Assembly (NCBI GenBank): GCA_003564295.1
Contig: PXFI01000093.1
Span: forward strand, 1-52,806
Reading direction: 5' to 3'
Source: Gemmatimonadota bacterium
Lineage (GTDB): Bacteria; Gemmatimonadota; Gemmatimonadetes; Longimicrobiales; Gaopeijiaceae
DNA length: 52,806 bases
Part shown: positions 20,484 through 29,746 of the stretch, piece after piece
Layout of the letters: each line of letters starts with the position of its first letter
Position numbering within the stretch: the stretch's first letter is position 1
Program-made: the position numbers and the translations under genes
The notes under the pieces: model-generated
Databases searched by the model: none
Seen by the model: only the letters and a program-made list of their open reading frames with translations
Told to the model about the DNA's origin: nothing

Positions 20484-22514
20484 ATGGACGATCGTAACAG
20501 AAGCGACAGAACGAGAAGGGTCTTTGGGAGCATGAACCGCCGGTGGATGAGTCTCCTGGTGGGCGGACTCGTGGTGGTCCTGGTGGTGGCGGCGTTCCTG
20601 GCGGGCCGGAGCTCCGTGTCGGGAGACCCTCTGGCCCATGACCACGACCACGCCCACGACCATGACCATGACCACGCCGGGGAGGCTGGACCTGCCGATG
20701 CGGAGCAGTGGTTCACCTGCTCCATGCACCCTCAGGTACGCACCACCGACCCCGACGAACGGTGTCCCATCTGTGGGATGGAGCTCATTCCCGTCGCAGC
20801 CGACCTGGAGGACGAAGGCGACCCCACCCTCCCCATCCTTGCGGTGAGCCCTCGCTCGGCGGCCCTCATGCAGGTGGAAACCCACCCGGTGGAGCGCCGA
20901 GAAGTGGAGCGTTCGCTCCGCCTCTACGGAAGGATCGACTACGACGAGACGCGCCTGCGGCGCATCGCCTCCTGGGTCCCCGGCCGCCTGGAGCGGCTGC
21001 ACGTGGACTTCACGGGCCAGGAGGTCCGGGCCGGGGACCCCATGGTTGTGATCTACAGTCCCGCCCTCATTGCGACCCAGGAGGAGCTCCTTCAGTCGCT
21101 GGCGGCTCAGCGCCAGCTCCCTCCCGATCCCTCTCCCGGCCTGGAAGCCGGCACCGCCTCCAGGCTGGAGGCAGCCCGAGATAAGCTGCGCCTCCTGGGG
21201 CTCAGCCCGGAGCAGATCCAGGAGATCGAGAGAGCGGGACGGGTGGAGGAGACCCTGACCCTCCCGGCTCCGGCGAACGGCGTGGTCATCGCCCGTGAAG
21301 CCACCGAGGGGTCCTACGTGGAGACGGGCCAGTCCATCTACACCCTGGCGGACCTTTCCCGGGTGTGGGTGACCCTGGAGGTCCATGAGCGGGACGCGGA
21401 GTGGGTTCGAGTGGGACAGGAAGTTGCTTTCAGCCTCCAGGCCCTGCCCGGGGAGCGCTTCCCGGGGAGGGTGGCCTTCGTCCAACCCACCGTCCATGAC
21501 GACACCCGGACGGTCCAGATTCGGGTGGATCTGCCGAACCCTGCGGGACGTCTCAAGCCGGGGATGTTCGCCACCGGTGAGCTTCGGGCTCCCATCCCCC
21601 CCTCAGCGGGGACCGCCGGGAGGGCGGCTCCCCTGGTCATCCCGGTCTCGGCCCCCCTCCTCACGGGGAAGCGGGCCCTGGTCTACGTCCAGGTCCCTGA
21701 CAGCGACCGGCCAACCTTCGAGGGTCGGGAGGTGGTTCTGGGCCCCCGGGCCGGCGATTGGTACGTGGTTCGGGAGGGCCTCCAGGAGGGGGAACTGGTG
21801 GTGACCCAGGGGAACTTCAAGATCGACAGCGAGCTCCAGATCCGAGGCCGGCCCAGCATGATGGCCCCCCATGGCGGAGGCGCGCCGGTCCATGACCATG
21901 GACCCGCCGCGCCTGCCCACGACCACGGGCCGACAGGAGACGCCCCCCCGGCGGCGGCCCCCCAGCCCCCACCGGAGACCGCCGTGGCGCAGCCTCCGGC
22001 CACCCCGGCAGATGAGCACCATCGGCCAGAGCCCTCCCTCACCCAGGTGCCCCCCCCCTTCGCCGAACAGGTGGGCGCGGTGGTGAAAGCCAACTTCGAC
22101 CTGGTGCGCTGGCTTTCGGGAGACGACCCGGAGGAGTCCAGGAAGGCTGCCGTTTCCGCCCTGGAAGCCCTGGATCAGGTGGACCCCGGCCTCCTGGAAG
22201 GCGCCGCACGGGACATCTGGGCACCCCTCCATGTCCGCATGCGAAACGGCCTCACCGCCCTGGTGGAGGAGTCGGACTTCGAGGAGATGCGAATGCACTT
22301 CGAGGGCTTCTCGGATCCCCTGATCCAGGCGGTCCGGATCTTCGGCACCGGTTCCGTGGCTCCCGTATACCGAGCCATGTGCCCCATGGTGCAGGGGCGG
22401 GAGGCCTTCTGGCTGTCGCCCCGGGATGAGATCACCAACCCCTACCACGGGTCCCGCATGTACTCCTGCGGGAGCATCGTGGAGGTGATGGTGCCGCCGC
22501 CGAACTCTTTCTAG
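20484..22514 (+). CDS. CusB-like RND periplasmic adaptor with heavy-metal-binding modules
   Basis: A 676-residue membrane-fusion protein linking the CusA-like permease to the TolC-like channel. An N-terminal anchor (residues 23-40) is followed by a His/Asp run (52-64), then the heavy-metal-binding domain with C79, M81, H82, C94, C97 and M99 (CSMHP and CPICGM). The HlyD-type lipoyl/barrel core fills about 110-440. A second His-rich, Pro/Ala-rich linker (HDHGP repeated) precedes a C-terminal DUF3347-like domain that repeats a metal-binding look (YRAMCPM, SRMYSCG). Three separate metal-binding elements in one adaptor suggest periplasmic Cu/Ag capture. GGAG before the ATG at 20484 supports this start. 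The permease gene begins nine bases after its stop. Confidence 0.92.
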   Translation: MDDRNRSDRTRRVFGSMNRRWMSLLVGGLVVVLVVAAFLAGRSSVSGDPLAHDHDHAHDHDHDHAGEAGPADAEQWFTCSMHPQVRTTDPDERCPICGMELIPVAADLEDEGDPTLPILAVSPRSAALMQVETHPVERREVERSLRLYGRIDYDETRLRRIASWVPGRLERLHVDFTGQEVRAGDPMVVIYSPALIATQEELLQSLAAQRQLPPDPSPGLEAGTASRLEAARDKLRLLGLSPEQIQEIERAGRVEETLTLPAPANGVVIAREATEGSYVETGQSIYTLADLSRVWVTLEVHERDAEWVRVGQEVAFSLQALPGERFPGRVAFVQPTVHDDTRTVQIRVDLPNPAGRLKPGMFATGELRAPIPPSAGTAGRAAPLVIPVSAPLLTGKRALVYVQVPDSDRPTFEGREVVLGPRAGDWYVVREGLQEGELVVTQGNFKIDSELQIRGRPSMMAPHGGGAPVHDHGPAAPAHDHGPTGDAPPAAAPQPPPETAVAQPPATPADEHHRPEPSLTQVPPPFAEQVGAVVKANFDLVRWLSGDDPEESRKAAVSALEALDQVDPGLLEGAARDIWAPLHVRMRNGLTALVEESDFEEMRMHFEGFSDPLIQAVRIFGTGSVAPVYRAMCPMVQGREAFWLSPRDEITNPYHGSRMYSCGSIVEVMVPPPNSF

Positions 22515-22523
22515 GCTCGCCCC

Positions 22524-25500
22524 ATGGAATCCACTGGTAACGGCCGGTTCGGCCTCGGCGGGCTCATCCACTTCTTCCTGGCCAACAAGCTGGTTACGGG
22601 GCTCCTGGTCCTCCTCCTTGTGGGGTGGGGCGTCTCCGTGGCGCCCTTCGATTGGGACCTGGAGTGGCTCCCCCGGAGACCCGTGCCGGTGGACGCCATC
22701 CCCAACCTGGGGGAGAACCAGCAGATCGTCATGACCGAGTGGCCCGGCCGCTCCCCCCAGGACGTGGAGGACCAGGTCACCTATCCCCTCACCACGGCCC
22801 TTCTGGGGGTTCCAGGGGTCCGGGAGGTCCGGAGCTCGTCGGCCTTCGGGTTTTCCATGGTCTTCCTCATCTTCGAGGAGAACGTGGAGTTCTACTGGTC
22901 CCGGGCCCGAATCATCGAGAAGCTCAACTCACTGCCACCGGACCTCCTTCCCATGGACGCCATGCCGGCCCTGGGCCCCGACGCCACCGCCCTGGGGCAG
23001 GTCTTCTGGTACACGCTGGAAGGGAGGGACCCCCGGGGCCACCCCGTAGGGGGCTGGGACCTGGACGAGCTCCGGAGCGTCCAGGACTGGTTCGTGCGCT
23101 ACGGCCTCATGGCTTCCGAGGGCGTGAGCGAGGTGGCCTCCGTCGGAGGGTATGTCCGGGAATACCAGGTTGACGTGGACCGGGACGCCATGCGGATCCA
23201 CGGCGTCACCCTGGACCAGATCCTGGACGCCGCCGCCTCCGCCAACCTGGACATGGGAGCCGGCACCACCGAGATCAACCGGGTGGAGTACGTCATCCGG
23301 GGCAGGGGGTTCATCCGGAGTCTGGAAGACCTGGAGGAGGCGGTGGTCCGGACCGCCCCCGGCTACCTTCCCATCCGCCTGGGGGACGTGGCGAACGTGT
23401 CCCTGGGGCCGGCGCCCCGCCGGGGCGCCCTCACCGTGGCCGGGGCCGAGGCGGTGGGCGGAGTAGTGGTGGTCAGGGAGGGCTTCAACCCCCTCCAGGC
23501 CATCCAGAACGTGAAGGCCCGCATAGCCGAGATCTCCCCGGGGCTCCCCGCCAAGGCCCTGGTGGACTGGAGCCGCACTGACCGAGCCCGTCTGGAGACC
23601 TTCGCCGCCGCCATGGGGTTCGACGCCTTCGCGGGGGCGGAGGTGAACCACCCGGAGTGGGTAAGCTGGCTTCGAGCCCATCCTCCGGAGGCCTGGCCCC
23701 AGGGCGTCACCCTGAGTCAGCTCGAGATCGTCCCCTTCTACGACCGCACCGGTCTAATCCACGAGACGTTGGGAACCCTCAACGACGCTCTGCTGCAGCA
23801 GATCCTCATCACCATCATCGTGGTCATCCTGATGCTGGTGAACCTCCGGGCGTCGTTCGTCATCAGCTCCATGCTCCCCCTGGCGGTCCTGGGAGCCTTC
23901 ATCGGTATGAAGCTGGCGGGGGTGGAAGCCAACGTGGTAGCCCTGGCAGGGATCGCCATCGCCATCGGCACCATCGTGGACATGGGGCTCATCATCACGG
24001 AAAACGTCATCAAGCACCTGGACGAGGCACCGCCGGAGGAAGACCGCCTCCAGGTGGTATGGCGGGGCTCCCGAGAGGTGGGCTCGGCGGTGCTCACGGC
24101 CATCTCCACCACAATCATCGGCTTCCTGCCGGTCTTCACCATGACGGGGCCCGAGGGGAAGATGTTCACCCCCCTCGCCTTCACCAAGACCTTCGTCCTC
24201 CTGGCTTCCGTGGTCCTGGCCCTGACGGTGGTTCCGTCCCTCATCCACCTCGTCACGGGTCGGAGGATGCAGGGGACGCGGCTGCGGCGGATGCTCAGGA
24301 CGAGCCTCCCTGCCCGGGTGGAGGGCCATGCTCCGGTGGCCTTCAACGTGGCAGTGGCCGTCCTCTTCGTGGCCGTCCTGGCGTCGGTGTGGGAGCCTTT
24401 GGGCCCTGCGGCGGGAGGGATCCGGAACTTCCTCTTCGCCGGAGGACTCATCGCCCTGGTCCTGGGCGCCTTTGCACTGGTACATCGCCACTACGCCGGG
24501 ATCCTGAAGTGGGCTCTGCACCACAAGGCTCTTTTCCTTTCCATCCCCGGGGCCATGGTGGTCCTGGGTCTTTTCGTGTGGCTGGGATTAGGCCGGGTCC
24601 TGGGCTTCATTCCGGCTGCCGTGGACCAGGTCGGGCTTGACGGGGACCGAATCCGCCTGAGCCGGCCGTGGGTGGCGGTGGCTCACGAGTTCCCGGGATT
24701 GGGAAGGGAGTTCATGCCGCCCCTGGACGAAGGCTCCTTCCTCTGGATGCCCACCACCATGCCTCATGCCTCCATCGGCGAAGCCCTTGAGGTGCTCCAG
24801 TACCAGGACATGGCCATCGCCTCGGTTCCCGAGGTGGAGACGGTGGTTGGGAAGATCGGCCGGGCCGAGAGCGCCCTGGACCCGGCTCCCGTCTCCATGA
24901 TCGAGACGGTCATCAACTACAAGCCCGAGTACGTCACCGACCGTTCCGGCCGCCGTGTGCTCTTCCAGTACGATCGGCGCCGGGAGGAGTTCGTTCGGGA
25001 CGAAGACGGTGAGTTGATCCCTGACCCGAGGGGCCGCCCCTACCGCCAGTGGCGGGACCACATCCGGAGCCCTCAGGACATCTGGAACGAGGTCGCGGCG
25101 GCGGCACATCTCCCGGGAACCACTTCCGCCCCCAGGCTCCAGCCCATCGAGACCCGCCTGGTCATGCTCCAGACCGGAATGCGGGCCCCCATGGGAATCA
25201 AGCTCCAGGCCCCGGACCTGGAAACCCTGGATGGCATGGCTCTGGAGCTGGAGCGGCTGGTTCGTGAGGTGCCGGCGGTCCGGCGGGAGACGGTGAACGC
25301 CGAGCGGGTCATGGGCAAGCCCTATCTGGAGATCGAAGTGGACCGGAGGGCCATCGCCCGGTACGGACTGGCCGTCACGGACGTGCAGAGGGCCATGGCC
25401 GCGTCCATCGGGGGGCTGACGGTCACCACCACGGTGGAGGGCCGGGAGCGCTACCCGGTGCGGGTGCGCTACGCCAGGGAGCAACGCTCCGAGATCGAGG

Positions 25501-26411
25501 ACCTGGAGCAGGTCCTCATTCCGGCCATGGACGGTACCCTGGTGCCCCTGGCTCAGGTGGCGGAGATCACCTACGTCCGGGGACCCGACATGATCCGGAG
25601 CGAGGACACCTTCCTCACCGCCTACGTCACCTTCAGCGGCGTGCCGAACATGGCCGAAGTCGAGGTGGTGGAGTCGGTGCAGGCCTACCTGGACTCCCGC
25701 GTCGCCTCAGGGGACCTGGTGGTACCGGCGGGAGTGAGCTGGAGGTTCTCCGGGACCTACGAGAGCCAGCTCCGGGCCGCCGCCACTCTGCGGGTGGTGC
25801 TCCCCGTGGCCCTGGCCATCATCCTCCTGATCCTCTACCTCCAGTTCCGCTCCCTCTCCACCACCCTCATGATCTTCAGCGGCATCGCTGTGGCCTGGGC
25901 CGGTGGGTTCGTCATGATCTACTTCTACGGCCAGGACTGGTTCGCCAACTTCGCCATTTTCGGCGTGAACATGAGGGAGCTCTTCCAGCTCCACGCCATC
26001 AACCTGAGCGTGGCGGTGTGGGTGGGGTTCCTGGCCCTGTTCGGCATCGCCGTGGACGACGGTGTCCTCATGGCCACCTACCTCAGGCAGCGCTTCGGCG
26101 AGACCCGGCCCAGGACAGTGCAGGAGATCCGTGACGAGACCGTCTACGCTGGGCTCAGGCGGGTCCGTCCCGCCCTCATGACCTCCGCCACCACAGTCCT
26201 GGCACTTCTTCCCGTCCTCACCTCCACCGGACGGGGGGCCGACGTCATGATCCCCATGGCCATCCCCACCGTGGGAGGCATGACCCTGGCCGTGGTCACC
26301 ATGTTCACCGTTCCTGTGTTGTGGTCCTGGTGGGAGGAGACGAAGCTCCGGGGGGCAGGAGGCGCAACGCCACCATCTGGGCCTGCCGGGCCAGATCCAC
26401 GGCGTGGGTGA
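22524..26411 (+). CDS. cusA: CusA/CzcA-type heavy-metal RND efflux permease
   Basis: A 1295-residue inner-membrane proton antiporter, longer than the usual 1040 because of extra periplasmic and loop sequence. The TM4 proton-relay segment reads AIAIGTIVDMGLIITEN. Methionines at the positions expected for the CusA copper/silver triad are present in LWMPTT, DPAPVSMIE and RLVMLQTG, which favours Cu(I)/Ag(I) over Zn/Co/Cd. The neighbouring genes supply the adaptor and channel. Its last 107 bp run antiparallel through the end of the nitrite reductase gene; the conserved permease core ends near 26340, so only the tail is affected. The gene symbol reflects family, not proven substrate. Confidence 0.93.
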   Translation: MESTGNGRFGLGGLIHFFLANKLVTGLLVLLLVGWGVSVAPFDWDLEWLPRRPVPVDAIPNLGENQQIVMTEWPGRSPQDVEDQVTYPLTTALLGVPGVREVRSSSAFGFSMVFLIFEENVEFYWSRARIIEKLNSLPPDLLPMDAMPALGPDATALGQVFWYTLEGRDPRGHPVGGWDLDELRSVQDWFVRYGLMASEGVSEVASVGGYVREYQVDVDRDAMRIHGVTLDQILDAAASANLDMGAGTTEINRVEYVIRGRGFIRSLEDLEEAVVRTAPGYLPIRLGDVANVSLGPAPRRGALTVAGAEAVGGVVVVREGFNPLQAIQNVKARIAEISPGLPAKALVDWSRTDRARLETFAAAMGFDAFAGAEVNHPEWVSWLRAHPPEAWPQGVTLSQLEIVPFYDRTGLIHETLGTLNDALLQQILITIIVVILMLVNLRASFVISSMLPLAVLGAFIGMKLAGVEANVVALAGIAIAIGTIVDMGLIITENVIKHLDEAPPEEDRLQVVWRGSREVGSAVLTAISTTIIGFLPVFTMTGPEGKMFTPLAFTKTFVLLASVVLALTVVPSLIHLVTGRRMQGTRLRRMLRTSLPARVEGHAPVAFNVAVAVLFVAVLASVWEPLGPAAGGIRNFLFAGGLIALVLGAFALVHRHYAGILKWALHHKALFLSIPGAMVVLGLFVWLGLGRVLGFIPAAVDQVGLDGDRIRLSRPWVAVAHEFPGLGREFMPPLDEGSFLWMPTTMPHASIGEALEVLQYQDMAIASVPEVETVVGKIGRAESALDPAPVSMIETVINYKPEYVTDRSGRRVLFQYDRRREEFVRDEDGELIPDPRGRPYRQWRDHIRSPQDIWNEVAAAAHLPGTTSAPRLQPIETRLVMLQTGMRAPMGIKLQAPDLETLDGMALELERLVREVPAVRRETVNAERVMGKPYLEIEVDRRAIARYGLAVTDVQRAMAASIGGLTVTTTVEGRERYPVRVRYAREQRSEIEDLEQVLIPAMDGTLVPLAQVAEITYVRGPDMIRSEDTFLTAYVTFSGVPNMAEVEVVESVQAYLDSRVASGDLVVPAGVSWRFSGTYESQLRAAATLRVVLPVALAIILLILYLQFRSLSTTLMIFSGIAVAWAGGFVMIYFYGQDWFANFAIFGVNMRELFQLHAINLSVAVWVGFLALFGIAVDDGVLMATYLRQRFGETRPRTVQEIRDETVYAGLRRVRPALMTSATTVLALLPVLTSTGRGADVMIPMAIPTVGGMTLAVVTMFTVPVLWSWWEETKLRGAGGATPPSGPAGPDPRRG

Positions 26412-27642
26412 GGACCCTGGCCGTCTCCTGGGGTGAGTGGAACCCCATGGAGTTCTCGGCGTCTATGAAATCCCATCGCGTCTGGGCCCGCCGATGGAGG
26501 GACCAGGCTTCCTCCAGAGCATCGTCGGACGCCCCGGCGGCCCGGGCCGCCACGATGGCATCGATGGCGTCGGAGATGGCCACCTCCACCAGAGTGAGCA
26601 TCTCCCTGGTCTTGATCTGGGCGCCCTCCACCCGGTCGATGAGGTCCCGCTCCGGGATCCGGTGACAGACCTGGCAGGCGTTGCTCACCTCGGTCAGGGG
26701 ACTCCGGATCCAGTGGTCGCTGATCTTGACCCCACCCTCCCGAATGTAAGGCATGTGGCAATCGGCGCAGGCCACCCCGCTGGCGTAGTGCACCGAGGTG
26801 CTGAAGAGCTCGAACTCCGGGTGCTGCATCTTGAGCATCCCGCCCCCCGTCTCCGCATGGGTCCAGTCCGTGAAGCCGTACTGCTTGTAGTGCTGCTCCA
26901 TAGAGTCCACCACCAGGCCCCGTGACCATGGGAAGGTGAGGATACGGTCTGGCCCCCTGAAGTAATACTCCACGTGGCACTGGGCGCACACGTAAGTCCG
27001 CATCTCCTGGCGGGTGGCCTTGGAAATGTCGATGCCCAGCTGTTCCAAGCCGATCAACAGGGCCGGACGGGTGATTCTGAGCTCCATGGTGGAGGGGTCG
27101 TGGCAGTCGGCGCAGGAGCTCCCGAGGTGCAGCAGGTGGCGGAGGGAGTCGTAGGGTGTCCTGTTGAAGGCTTCCCATCCCATCTCCCGGATCAGCAGGG
27201 GAGCCTCGGCGGCGTGGCAGTTGACGCAGGCCCCGGGCTGGTCGAACTCCGTGGTCCGTCGGGTCTGCTGCTGGTCGATCTGGGCATAGAAGTGCCCTCG
27301 AGCCTGGTTGTACTCTACGGCGAAGGGGTAGCCGGCCCATGCCTTCCTGCGGAAGGGGTTCGCCTCCAGCTTGTCGTAGGGTGTGCTACCCCCGAACAGG
27401 GTGCGGCCGTAGTCCAGCTCGGTCAGAACGAATCGGTCGTACTGCCGGGGGAAGTTACGCCTCCACACCTCCGGATCCAGCTCGTCCTCCGGGATCTCCA
27501 GGACCAGGCTCGGGGACATGAGCCCTTCCATCTTCCGCTCCTGGATGTTGGTGAGGAGCAATCCGATCCCCACACCTGTCAGCAGGAAGATCACGGTGAC
27601 CAGGACCCATAGTCCCGTCTTGCCCATCCGTTCCGTGCTCAT
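26305..27642 (-). CDS. nrfA: Ammonia-forming cytochrome c nitrite reductase NrfA
   Basis: Pentahaem periplasmic enzyme reducing nitrite to ammonium with six electrons. An N-terminal hydrophobic segment (11-31) exports or anchors it. Five haem motifs are present: C139-C142-H143, C177-C180-H181, C219-C222-H223, C292-C295-H296 and C323-C326-H327. Catalytic residues align with the E. coli enzyme: R129, the tyrosine in VEYYF (226-227) and H274 in MLKMQHPE, with K271 and Q273 at the calcium site. The active-site haem has CxxCH instead of the classical CxxCK, as in a known subgroup. GAGGAA precedes the ATG. The quinol-oxidising partner NrfH is encoded just upstream. The final residues overlap the CusA-like gene. 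Confidence 0.95.
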   Translation of the reverse strand: MSTERMGKTGLWVLVTVIFLLTGVGIGLLLTNIQERKMEGLMSPSLVLEIPEDELDPEVWRRNFPRQYDRFVLTELDYGRTLFGGSTPYDKLEANPFRRKAWAGYPFAVEYNQARGHFYAQIDQQQTRRTTEFDQPGACVNCHAAEAPLLIREMGWEAFNRTPYDSLRHLLHLGSSCADCHDPSTMELRITRPALLIGLEQLGIDISKATRQEMRTYVCAQCHVEYYFRGPDRILTFPWSRGLVVDSMEQHYKQYGFTDWTHAETGGGMLKMQHPEFELFSTSVHYASGVACADCHMPYIREGGVKISDHWIRSPLTEVSNACQVCHRIPERDLIDRVEGAQIKTREMLTLVEVAISDAIDAIVAARAAGASDDALEEAWSLHRRAQTRWDFIDAENSMGFHSPQETARVLTHAVDLARQAQMVALRLLPPGASSPPTRTTTQER

Positions 27643-27753: not shown

Positions 27754-28245
27754 TCAATCCACCCCCGGGTGCCCCACGTTCCCGTGGCAGTCCACGCACC
27801 GGAGGTCGTCCCGGGCCGGCCTGTGGCCCAGGAGCATGTCGTTCACCATGGTCTGATGGCAGTTCAGGCAGTTTTCCAGGAGCACAGCTTCGTTCTGCGG
27901 CTTGATCATGATGGGCTCGTGAAAGTCACCGGTTGTGAACTTCACCGAGTGGTTCCACCCGTTGATGGCCTTGCGCGTCCACTTGCCCAGGAAATCGTGT
28001 GGCACGTGACAGTCGTTGCAGGTGGCCCATGCCCGGTGGGAGGAGCGCCACCAGGCCTCGTACTGGTCGCTCATGACGTGGCAGTTCACGCACGCCGCCG
28101 GATCATCCGTGAGGTAGGAGAGGCCTTCGGCATGGAAGGCGGTGAACCCTCCCAGACCCATCACCAGCCCCAGGCTGGCGAAAGCAAACAAGGGGAGAAG
28201 GGTGGCCTTGCTCGAGAGGGGAGTGTTGTCCCGGTTTCTGTTCAA
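27754..28245 (-). CDS. nrfH: NrfH tetrahaem membrane cytochrome (quinol dehydrogenase)
   Basis: A 163-residue membrane-anchored NapC/NirT-family cytochrome that oxidises menaquinol and feeds NrfA. One N-terminal transmembrane helix (about 15-35) is followed by four CxxCH sites at C52, C76, C126 and C150. M58 just after the first haem (CVNCHVM) matches the unusual methionine ligand of NrfH. The reading frame begins with TTG; a strong GAGGAGGG six bases upstream supports that non-ATG start. It precedes nrfA by 111 bp on the same strand, forming the standard nrfHA unit. A long 5' region before it (28246-28429) lies between it and the end of the M20 gene and must hold its promoter. Confidence 0.93.
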   Translation of the reverse strand: MNRNRDNTPLSSKATLLPLFAFASLGLVMGLGGFTAFHAEGLSYLTDDPAACVNCHVMSDQYEAWWRSSHRAWATCNDCHVPHDFLGKWTRKAINGWNHSVKFTTGDFHEPIMIKPQNEAVLLENCLNCHQTMVNDMLLGHRPARDDLRCVDCHGNVGHPGVD

Positions 28246-28429: not shown

Positions 28430-29746
28430 TTACCGGCCGGCACCTCCCCCCAGGGCCGCCGCCAGGAGGAATACGTGCTGGGCCGATCGGACCATGGCGG
28501 GCACGTCGGCCCATTCCTCCGGAGTCCCCCGCTCCCCGCCCCGGCTCCCCCCGAGGCCGATAGCCGGCAGGCCTTCTCCCAGGGGAACATTCATGTTGGA
28601 AGACCCGGCGATGCTCAGCTGAGGCTCCAGGCCCAGGTAGCGGGAGATCCCCTCCGCCGTCCGCACCAGCTCCGAGTCCCGAAAGCCCGGAATCTGGCCT
28701 CCGGGAGTGAGTTGCACCGGCTCCATGCGCAGGGCGATCCCCGTCTCCTCCGAGACCTCCGCCAGGATGGCCCGGACCTCTTCCTCCATCCGGTCCACCA
28801 CGGCCCTGTCCAGGGAGCGGAGATCCAGGGAGAACCACCCCGACGCCGGCTTGTGGTTGAATACCTCCCCACTCCGGAGCATGGCCACGTTCACCACCGT
28901 GCGCTGGGGGGGATCCTGGACCTCCGGCGCCCAGGAGAGGATCCGGTCCGCGGCCCTGGCCAGCCCCTGGTTCACGTTGGGCAGCCCCCCGCCCAGGGAA
29001 TGCCCCGGGGGTCCCTCCCCCTCCACCCGCCACCAATGGATGCTCAGGGCACCATAGCTGATGCTCCGCCCATCCCCCAGGATGTCCACGAAGCCCAGGG
29101 CCCGGTCACGATACTCGTTCAGCAGGGCGTGCATCCCCACCAGGCCCGTCTCTTCCTGGGCCACGGCGGCGAAGACCAGGTCGTGCTCTGGGACCAGACC
29201 CGACGCCACGTATGCCTCGGCGGCCATGAGCATGGCCACGGTGATGGAGGAGGTGTTGGTGCCTGGTCCCAACACCCGGTCCCCCTCCACCCGTGGAGGC
29301 CCCGGCGCCCGGCGCTGGTGCTCCGCCACCGTGGCCAGATCGTCCAGGGTGGATACGAAGACCAGGGCCTTGCCCGACCGGCCTGGAATGACCCCGATGG
29401 CGTTGGGGCTCCCGTCCACCCTCACCTGGGACAGGCCTATGCGGCGCATCTCCTGAGCCACCCGCTCCGCCCTCTCGTGTTCGTGGCCTGAAGGGGAGAC
29501 GATGCCCCCGATCTCCGCAAGGAGCTCGGCGCCGGCCGACACTCTTGCGTCCAGTCCCTCCACTCCCGCCCGGACCCGTGGATCCTCCAGGGCCCGCTCC
29601 AGGGCCGACTGGCCGGCGGCCGCACCGGGAAGGAACATAGGCAAGAGAAGGAGGAAGACGACCAGGGCAGAGGCTCCGGGCTGGCGGTATTCGCCAGGGG
29701 AAACACAGGGGTCACCGTTGGGGATGGCTGTCATGCTGGAGACCAT
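28430..29746 (-). CDS. M20-family protein with degenerate metal sites (probable pseudo-peptidase)
   Basis: A 438-residue secreted protein with a signal sequence (ALVVFLLLLPMFLPGAAA, cleavage near residue 45) and the M20/M25/M40 fold, including the lid-domain PPGHSLGGGLPN. Compared with the family pattern, the first metal histidine (HxD) is T133-L134-D135. The bridging aspartate segment (GDD/GDN) is N164-T165-S166. STDAN near the end is S382-S383-N384, and the final ligand histidine of a GGxHS segment is replaced around E405-R406-G407. E198-E199 of the catalytic glutamate pair remain. The protein is full-length without a frameshift, so it looks selected rather than decayed. A non-hydrolytic peptide-binding role is inference. 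The start could also be the ATG four codons later. Confidence 0.75.
   Translation of the reverse strand: MVSSMTAIPNGDPCVSPGEYRQPGASALVVFLLLLPMFLPGAAAGQSALERALEDPRVRAGVEGLDARVSAGAELLAEIGGIVSPSGHEHERAERVAQEMRRIGLSQVRVDGSPNAIGVIPGRSGKALVFVSTLDDLATVAEHQRRAPGPPRVEGDRVLGPGTNTSSITVAMLMAAEAYVASGLVPEHDLVFAAVAQEETGLVGMHALLNEYRDRALGFVDILGDGRSISYGALSIHWWRVEGEGPPGHSLGGGLPNVNQGLARAADRILSWAPEVQDPPQRTVVNVAMLRSGEVFNHKPASGWFSLDLRSLDRAVVDRMEEEVRAILAEVSEETGIALRMEPVQLTPGGQIPGFRDSELVRTAEGISRYLGLEPQLSIAGSSNMNVPLGEGLPAIGLGGSRGGERGTPEEWADVPAMVRSAQHVFLLAAALGGGAGR

Follow-up and report, generated by a model that had tools for sequence, protein, structure and literature searches.

A predicted secreted M20-family protein of Gemmatimonadota that has lost most of its metal ligands

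Genes of the locus and the encoded protein

The gene under study lies within a 52,806-nucleotide stretch of DNA, the whole of which is called the window here. It encodes a protein of the M20 peptidase family, hereafter pseudo-M20, on the minus strand (Table 1), and the plus strand over the same interval gives an unrelated reading with a stop. The gene adjoins nrfH–nrfA and is divergent from a gene for a DASS-type transporter. NrfHA and the transporter were considered as functional partners and set aside, as their recurrence beside orthologues was not seen. The NrfA-like product has five CXXCH motifs and reads as a nitrite reductase of the ammonia-forming type, and CVNCH stands where E. coli-type NrfA has CXXCK; the NrfH gene is directly upstream. 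Further along, a CusB-like adaptor (676 aa), with an additional metal-binding-like N-terminus and a long C-terminal extension, is followed by a CusA/CzcA-type heavy-metal RND pump (1295 aa).

Table 1. Features of the pseudo-M20 gene and neighbouring genes in the window; counts refer to the pseudo-M20 clade and to its canonical M20 relatives (sisters)
Feature	Position	Strand	Content and conservation
Pseudo-M20 protein gene	28430..29746	-	Complete coding sequence and stop, 438 aa (ORF and translation)
N-terminal Sec export signal (predicted), residues 1-45	29612..29746	-	Hydrophobic core ~27-42, end ...AAAGQS (sequence)
T133-L134-D135, former HxD	29342..29350	-	T 29/30 (Met 1), His 21/21 in sisters; D135 30/30
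N164-T165-S166-S167, former bridging-Asp loop	29246..29257	-	N164 27/30, Asp 21/21 in sisters
E198 (general base) and E199 (only ligand kept)	29150..29155	-	31/31 in clade, 21/21 in sisters
L223, third acidic ligand replaced	29078..29080	-	Leu 30/31, Met 1; Asp 21/21 in sisters
H249, dimerisation-domain His	29000..29002	-	31/31 in clade, 21/21 in sisters
N297-H298-K299-P300	28847..28858	-	Ancestral N and P retained; K299 31/31, Ile 21/21 in sisters
S382-N386 (SSNMN), former STDAN	28589..28603	-	N384 31/31, D 20/21 in sisters
G404-G407 (GERG)	28526..28537	-	Position 407: G 27, A 3, V 1, His 21/21 in sisters; R406 31/31
NrfA-like gene	26308..27642	-	Nitrite reductase (sequence reading)
NrfH gene	27757..28245
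CusB-like adaptor and RND pump genes	20484..26408	+	Heavy-metal efflux type (sequence reading)

The product was originally predicted to be a full-length secreted M20 protein, and the reading frame, the Sec signal, the Pfam match and the modelled fold all bear this out. The Pfam models for M20, M20_dimer and M28 all exceed their cut-offs on the window protein, M20 and M20_dimer by a small margin; PF01546 (Peptidase_M20) scores 31.9 bits against a cut-off of 24.6, and PF07687 (M20_dimer) covers residues 235–334, a region with a strand/helix pattern in the AlphaFold prediction. Both PF01546 and PF07687 are matched in 12 of 12 alignment members. Profile-profile comparison by hhalign of the window clade with its canonical sisters gives an E-value of 8e-65. 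None of the NCBIfam models scores above its cut-off, so that they yield no curated name for the window protein, and a search of a plasmid collection with pseudo-M20 returned zero matches. The predicted export signal is conserved among orthologues: a strongly hydrophobic segment (12-residue mean of at least 1.9) occupies the site in 23 of 30, and a weaker one is found in most others.

AlphaFold, run with 50 sequences, predicts an M20 fold with pLDDT 91.2 and pTM 0.86. The top Foldseek match is PahZ2 (7ljh; TM 0.80/0.87, rmsd 2.4), followed by carboxypeptidase G2 (TM 0.70/0.78) and other M20 enzymes. PahZ2, a poly(aspartic acid) hydrolase, is also the nearest solved structure by sequence (phmmer 2e-22; 24% identity), and shares with the window protein the two-domain M20 architecture and the equivalents of D135, E198, E199, H249, N297 and R310. 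However, the PahZ2 structure has zinc, and PahZ2 keeps, in AHLD, GIGDD, MDG and ARAH, the His, Asp, Asp and His ligands that give way to Thr, Asn/Thr, Leu and Gly in the window protein. Similarly, carboxypeptidase G2 and DapE/ArgE (M20A) have the fold, the M20_dimer domain and the catalytic Asp, Glu and His in common with the window protein, but are active di-zinc enzymes.

The former metal site

The metal ligands of M20A enzymes are His, Asp, Glu, Glu/Asp and His (PMC10699109). Of this five-ligand set, which active M20 enzymes require, E199 is the sole member left in the window protein; the other four are replaced, the His by T133, the bridging Asp by N164 or T165, the third acidic ligand by L223 and the last His by G407. 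About 30 orthologues were compared with 21 canonical relatives of the same phylum (L016–L034 and, from the window's own genome, L002 and L003). These sisters are the nearest relatives of pseudo-M20, about 440 aa long and 27–35% identical to it, and all five ligands are intact in 21/21, including the two own-genome paralogues (31–32% identity). The losses, on the other hand, are common to every orthologue, contrary to one of the conditions that would have overturned the original prediction, intact residues in close homologues.

The segments TLD (133–135), NTSS (164–167), E198–E199, SSNMN (382–386) and GERG (404–407) were all found exactly where the original prediction had placed them. Its claim that most metal ligands are replaced stands for four of the five, with two corrections: the Asp of STDAN, which it had counted as lost, is not a listed M20 ligand (PMC10699109), and the replacement at L223 had been overlooked. 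Profile and profile-profile alignments both seat the segments on the M20 motifs. L223 follows strand 216–222, where relatives read xxDG, in a register on which the phmmer alignment with PahZ2 and hhalign agree. The loop N164–S167 is shorter by one residue than that of the sisters, and the alignments differ over its register by one residue, with MAFFT and hhalign favouring N164 and ungapped phmmer T165; neither position is Asp in any clade member.

Catalysis in the M20 family depends on the HxD Asp, on a Glu that serves as general base and on a His that the dimerisation domain carries at its tip and extends into the partner subunit (PMC10699109, PMC10815964, PMC4012986). All three residues are present in the window protein, as D135, E198 and H249, and are invariant in the clade; H249 is the counterpart of the trans oxyanion-hole His (PMC10815964, PMC10699109). 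N297, D308 and R310 are likewise invariant, and the sisters share this invariance at D135, E198, H249, N297 and R310. The part of the original prediction stating that E198–E199 remain extends to the whole clade.

Residues were also gained. D136, N384, K299 and R406, the last adjoining the lost His, are newly invariant in or beside the pocket; the sisters are without them, apart from one exception for N384. From loop position, K299 and R406 would both be placed in the pocket. D221 and D225 are new acidic residues, each found in 30/31 with Glu in the remaining member. Across the clade there is no new invariant His or Cys that could act as a replacement ligand: H188, H237 and H298 are new but variable, H237 being Ser in one lineage and H298 Arg in five members. 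A replacement His site is therefore unlikely, and the alternative histidines that might have overturned the original prediction were not found. On balance, the old site has lost three acidic groups (N164/T165, L223, N384) and gained two basic ones (K299, R406). Mean column entropy of the six pocket loops of the former metal site is 0.44, against 1.12 elsewhere, and a value as low arises in 1 of 364 circular shifts; hence the remodelled site itself, beyond the fold, is under selection.

Orthologues, spread and selection

The orthologues, about 30 in number, are 48–70% identical to the window protein. Pseudo-M20 was found in 28 of 395 genomes sampled from the window's phylum (E <= 1e-80, the window genome counted in), and the carriers belong to the window's own family, another family of the same order and two more of the class. 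It was also found in 3 of 97 genomes of one gammaproteobacterial order; among 274 genomes sampled from the class Gammaproteobacteria there was one, the query genome itself. Named relatives are metagenome bins of Gemmatimonadota and Gammaproteobacteria.

In a maximum-likelihood tree the pseudo-M20 sequences form a monophyletic clade on a long stem with support of 100/100. Long branches join at the base of this clade, which makes the exact sister group uncertain and leaves the unity of the clade secure. The family is best read as monophyletic and vertically maintained. The gammaproteobacterial copies nest within the Gemmatimonadota part of the tree, as would be expected for a likely transfer between phyla. 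Nei–Gojobori dN/dS of close pairs is 0.05–0.17, which indicates purifying selection and was a check proposed with the original prediction; in distant pairs synonymous sites are near saturation.

All orthologues other than two are either complete or truncated where the contig ends. One (L055, G266:C279) has an in-frame TAA about 90 residues into the ORF, either a sequencing error or a sign of a decaying copy, and the copy in L068 (G375) looks frame-disrupted upstream. These lesions may mean that the gene is dispensable in some lineages, or may be assembly errors. L068 and L066, both of family f4, make up a branch of the clade that has diverged further, with motifs MLDDL, AVELQS and GCCNMR; the ligands are also absent there, and E198/E199, K299 and R406 are retained.

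A pseudo-peptidase is marked by catalytic or metal residues lost throughout a group of orthologues that purifying selection maintains, and this is what we observe in this fully supported clade of about 30 orthologues. Pseudo-M20 accordingly fits the coordinated loss of the zinc site without decay that had been proposed for the window copy, given low dN/dS, the signal peptide and a fold predicted with high confidence. It appears to be a long-lived, repurposed relative of an enzyme and not a broken gene. The lesions in L055 and L068 are what a decaying pseudogene or a sequencing artefact has in its favour; against it, the same substitutions recur in about 30 orthologues, almost all of them without interruption, and dN/dS is low. 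Such an explanation is hardly credible for the family; for the window copy, the set of orthologues, the dN/dS values and the intact paralogues of the same genome refute it.

Possible functions of the remodelled pocket

We consider it moderately probable that pseudo-M20 is a metal-free periplasmic homodimer, whose cleft has kept the ability to bind a ligand resembling an amino acid, an acyl-amino acid or a peptide. The protein would assemble as the usual M20 homodimer of catalytic and dimerisation domains, with H249 entering the cleft of the partner and zinc absent. K299 and R406 would take the place of a metal in offsetting the charge of E198, E199 and D135. The ancestral residues N297, R310 and H249, which would recognise carboxylate or amide groups, are kept, and for this reason the cleft most likely still binds a periplasmic ligand of these classes. 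Because of what is known of the M20 family, loss of the ligands would mean that zinc chemistry is absent; metal is thus probably missing in vivo, and the window protein would be without catalytic activity, which we infer from the loss of ligands only. Its role would be to bind or sequester the ligand, not to hydrolyse it.

However, a protein that only binds would not need to retain E198 together with the HxD Asp and the oxyanion His, and their presence gives a hint of chemistry that is either left over or newly acquired. In a metal-independent enzyme, such as an isomerase, lyase, transferase or metal-free amidase, E198 would act as base and H249, K299 or R406 would provide the oxyanion hole. 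We regard this as unlikely, to our knowledge no metal-free hydrolase being known in the M20 family. Invariance of all three non-metal catalytic residues would suit such an enzyme, as would the pocket loops being the best-conserved part of the protein, but ligand binding explains this conservation equally well. The new invariant Lys and Arg could assume the electrostatic role of zinc, and pseudoenzymes that have acquired new chemistry exist in other folds, for example a pseudokinase polyglutamylase (among the references of PMC11266112). A new class of metal-free enzyme on the M20 scaffold, in which Lys and Arg replace the di-zinc centre, the base, the HxD Asp and the trans oxyanion His remain functional, and an exported substrate resembling an amino acid is converted independently of zinc, is slightly more doubtful still. 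Another explanation is an altered metal site, made of the carboxylates D135, D136, E198 and E199 with D221 and D225, for Ca, Mg or Mn. The first four are invariant and the other two nearly so, and named carriers apparently come from soda-lake metagenomes, a habitat read from isolate names. D136, D221 and D225 could form such a hard-metal site, but D221 and D225 lie off the old ligand position in register and the removal of three acidic groups is the opposite of what a hard metal needs, which makes this reading improbable.

The original prediction allowed for a binding or a regulatory role. Its pseudo-peptidase part is supported and binding is plausible, while regulation of a paralogue is argued against. 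As a regulatory subunit, pseudo-M20 would partner a secreted, active M20 paralogue and lend it H249 in trans. The dimerisation domain and H249 are indeed kept, the window genome has the two canonical paralogues noted above, and catalysis by DapE requires its dimerisation domain (PMC4012986). However, the gammaproteobacterial carriers G402 and G403 have pseudo-M20 without a second close homologue (only four M20 hits each), which argues that it is independent of a partner paralogue and disfavours a scaffold or regulator role. Moreover, no paralogue was seen beside the gene in the neighbourhood comparison, and the subunit's own pocket would have no need to be the best-conserved part. We therefore hold a regulatory subunit to be very improbable. 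The best-conserved pocket, with base and oxyanion His kept, points instead to a function centred on the pocket, whether it binds a ligand or performs chemistry without metal.

The best-known pseudo-members in families of co-catalytic metallopeptidases come from animals and belong to M28. In these non-peptidase homologues of clan MH, such as transferrin receptor and nicastrin, the co-catalytic zinc site is lost and the fold is kept. They are eukaryotic and multidomain, whereas the present family belongs to M20, is bacterial and keeps the base and the oxyanion His. Pseudo-M20 thus appears unusual among metallopeptidase pseudoenzymes in keeping every non-metal catalytic residue. We found no description of a pseudo-M20 family in the literature, and those passages of a review of inactive metallopeptidase homologues that mention M20 describe no pseudoenzyme of this family (PMC11266112). 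Here a bacterial M20 branch uncouples the metal ligands, which are gone, from the non-metal catalytic residues, which do not vary either between families of one class or in a second phylum. It offers a natural experiment on the capabilities of the metal-free half of the M20 active site. Automatic labels of 'M20 family metallopeptidase' on these proteins are probably wrong on both metal and activity.

Gene neighbourhoods were compared across about 30 contigs with a simple ORF picker, which left the target gene unpicked in five, and no conserved neighbour was found beyond those common to close relatives. Genes for DUF5916-like outer-membrane proteins, a secreted amidase, an M24-like peptidase and RidA (names from sequence reading) recur in 3–5 loci each. 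In two gammaproteobacterial bins (L037 and L038) the pseudo-M20 gene reads as following a BCCT-type transporter gene, near acetyl-CoA synthetase and in the same order.
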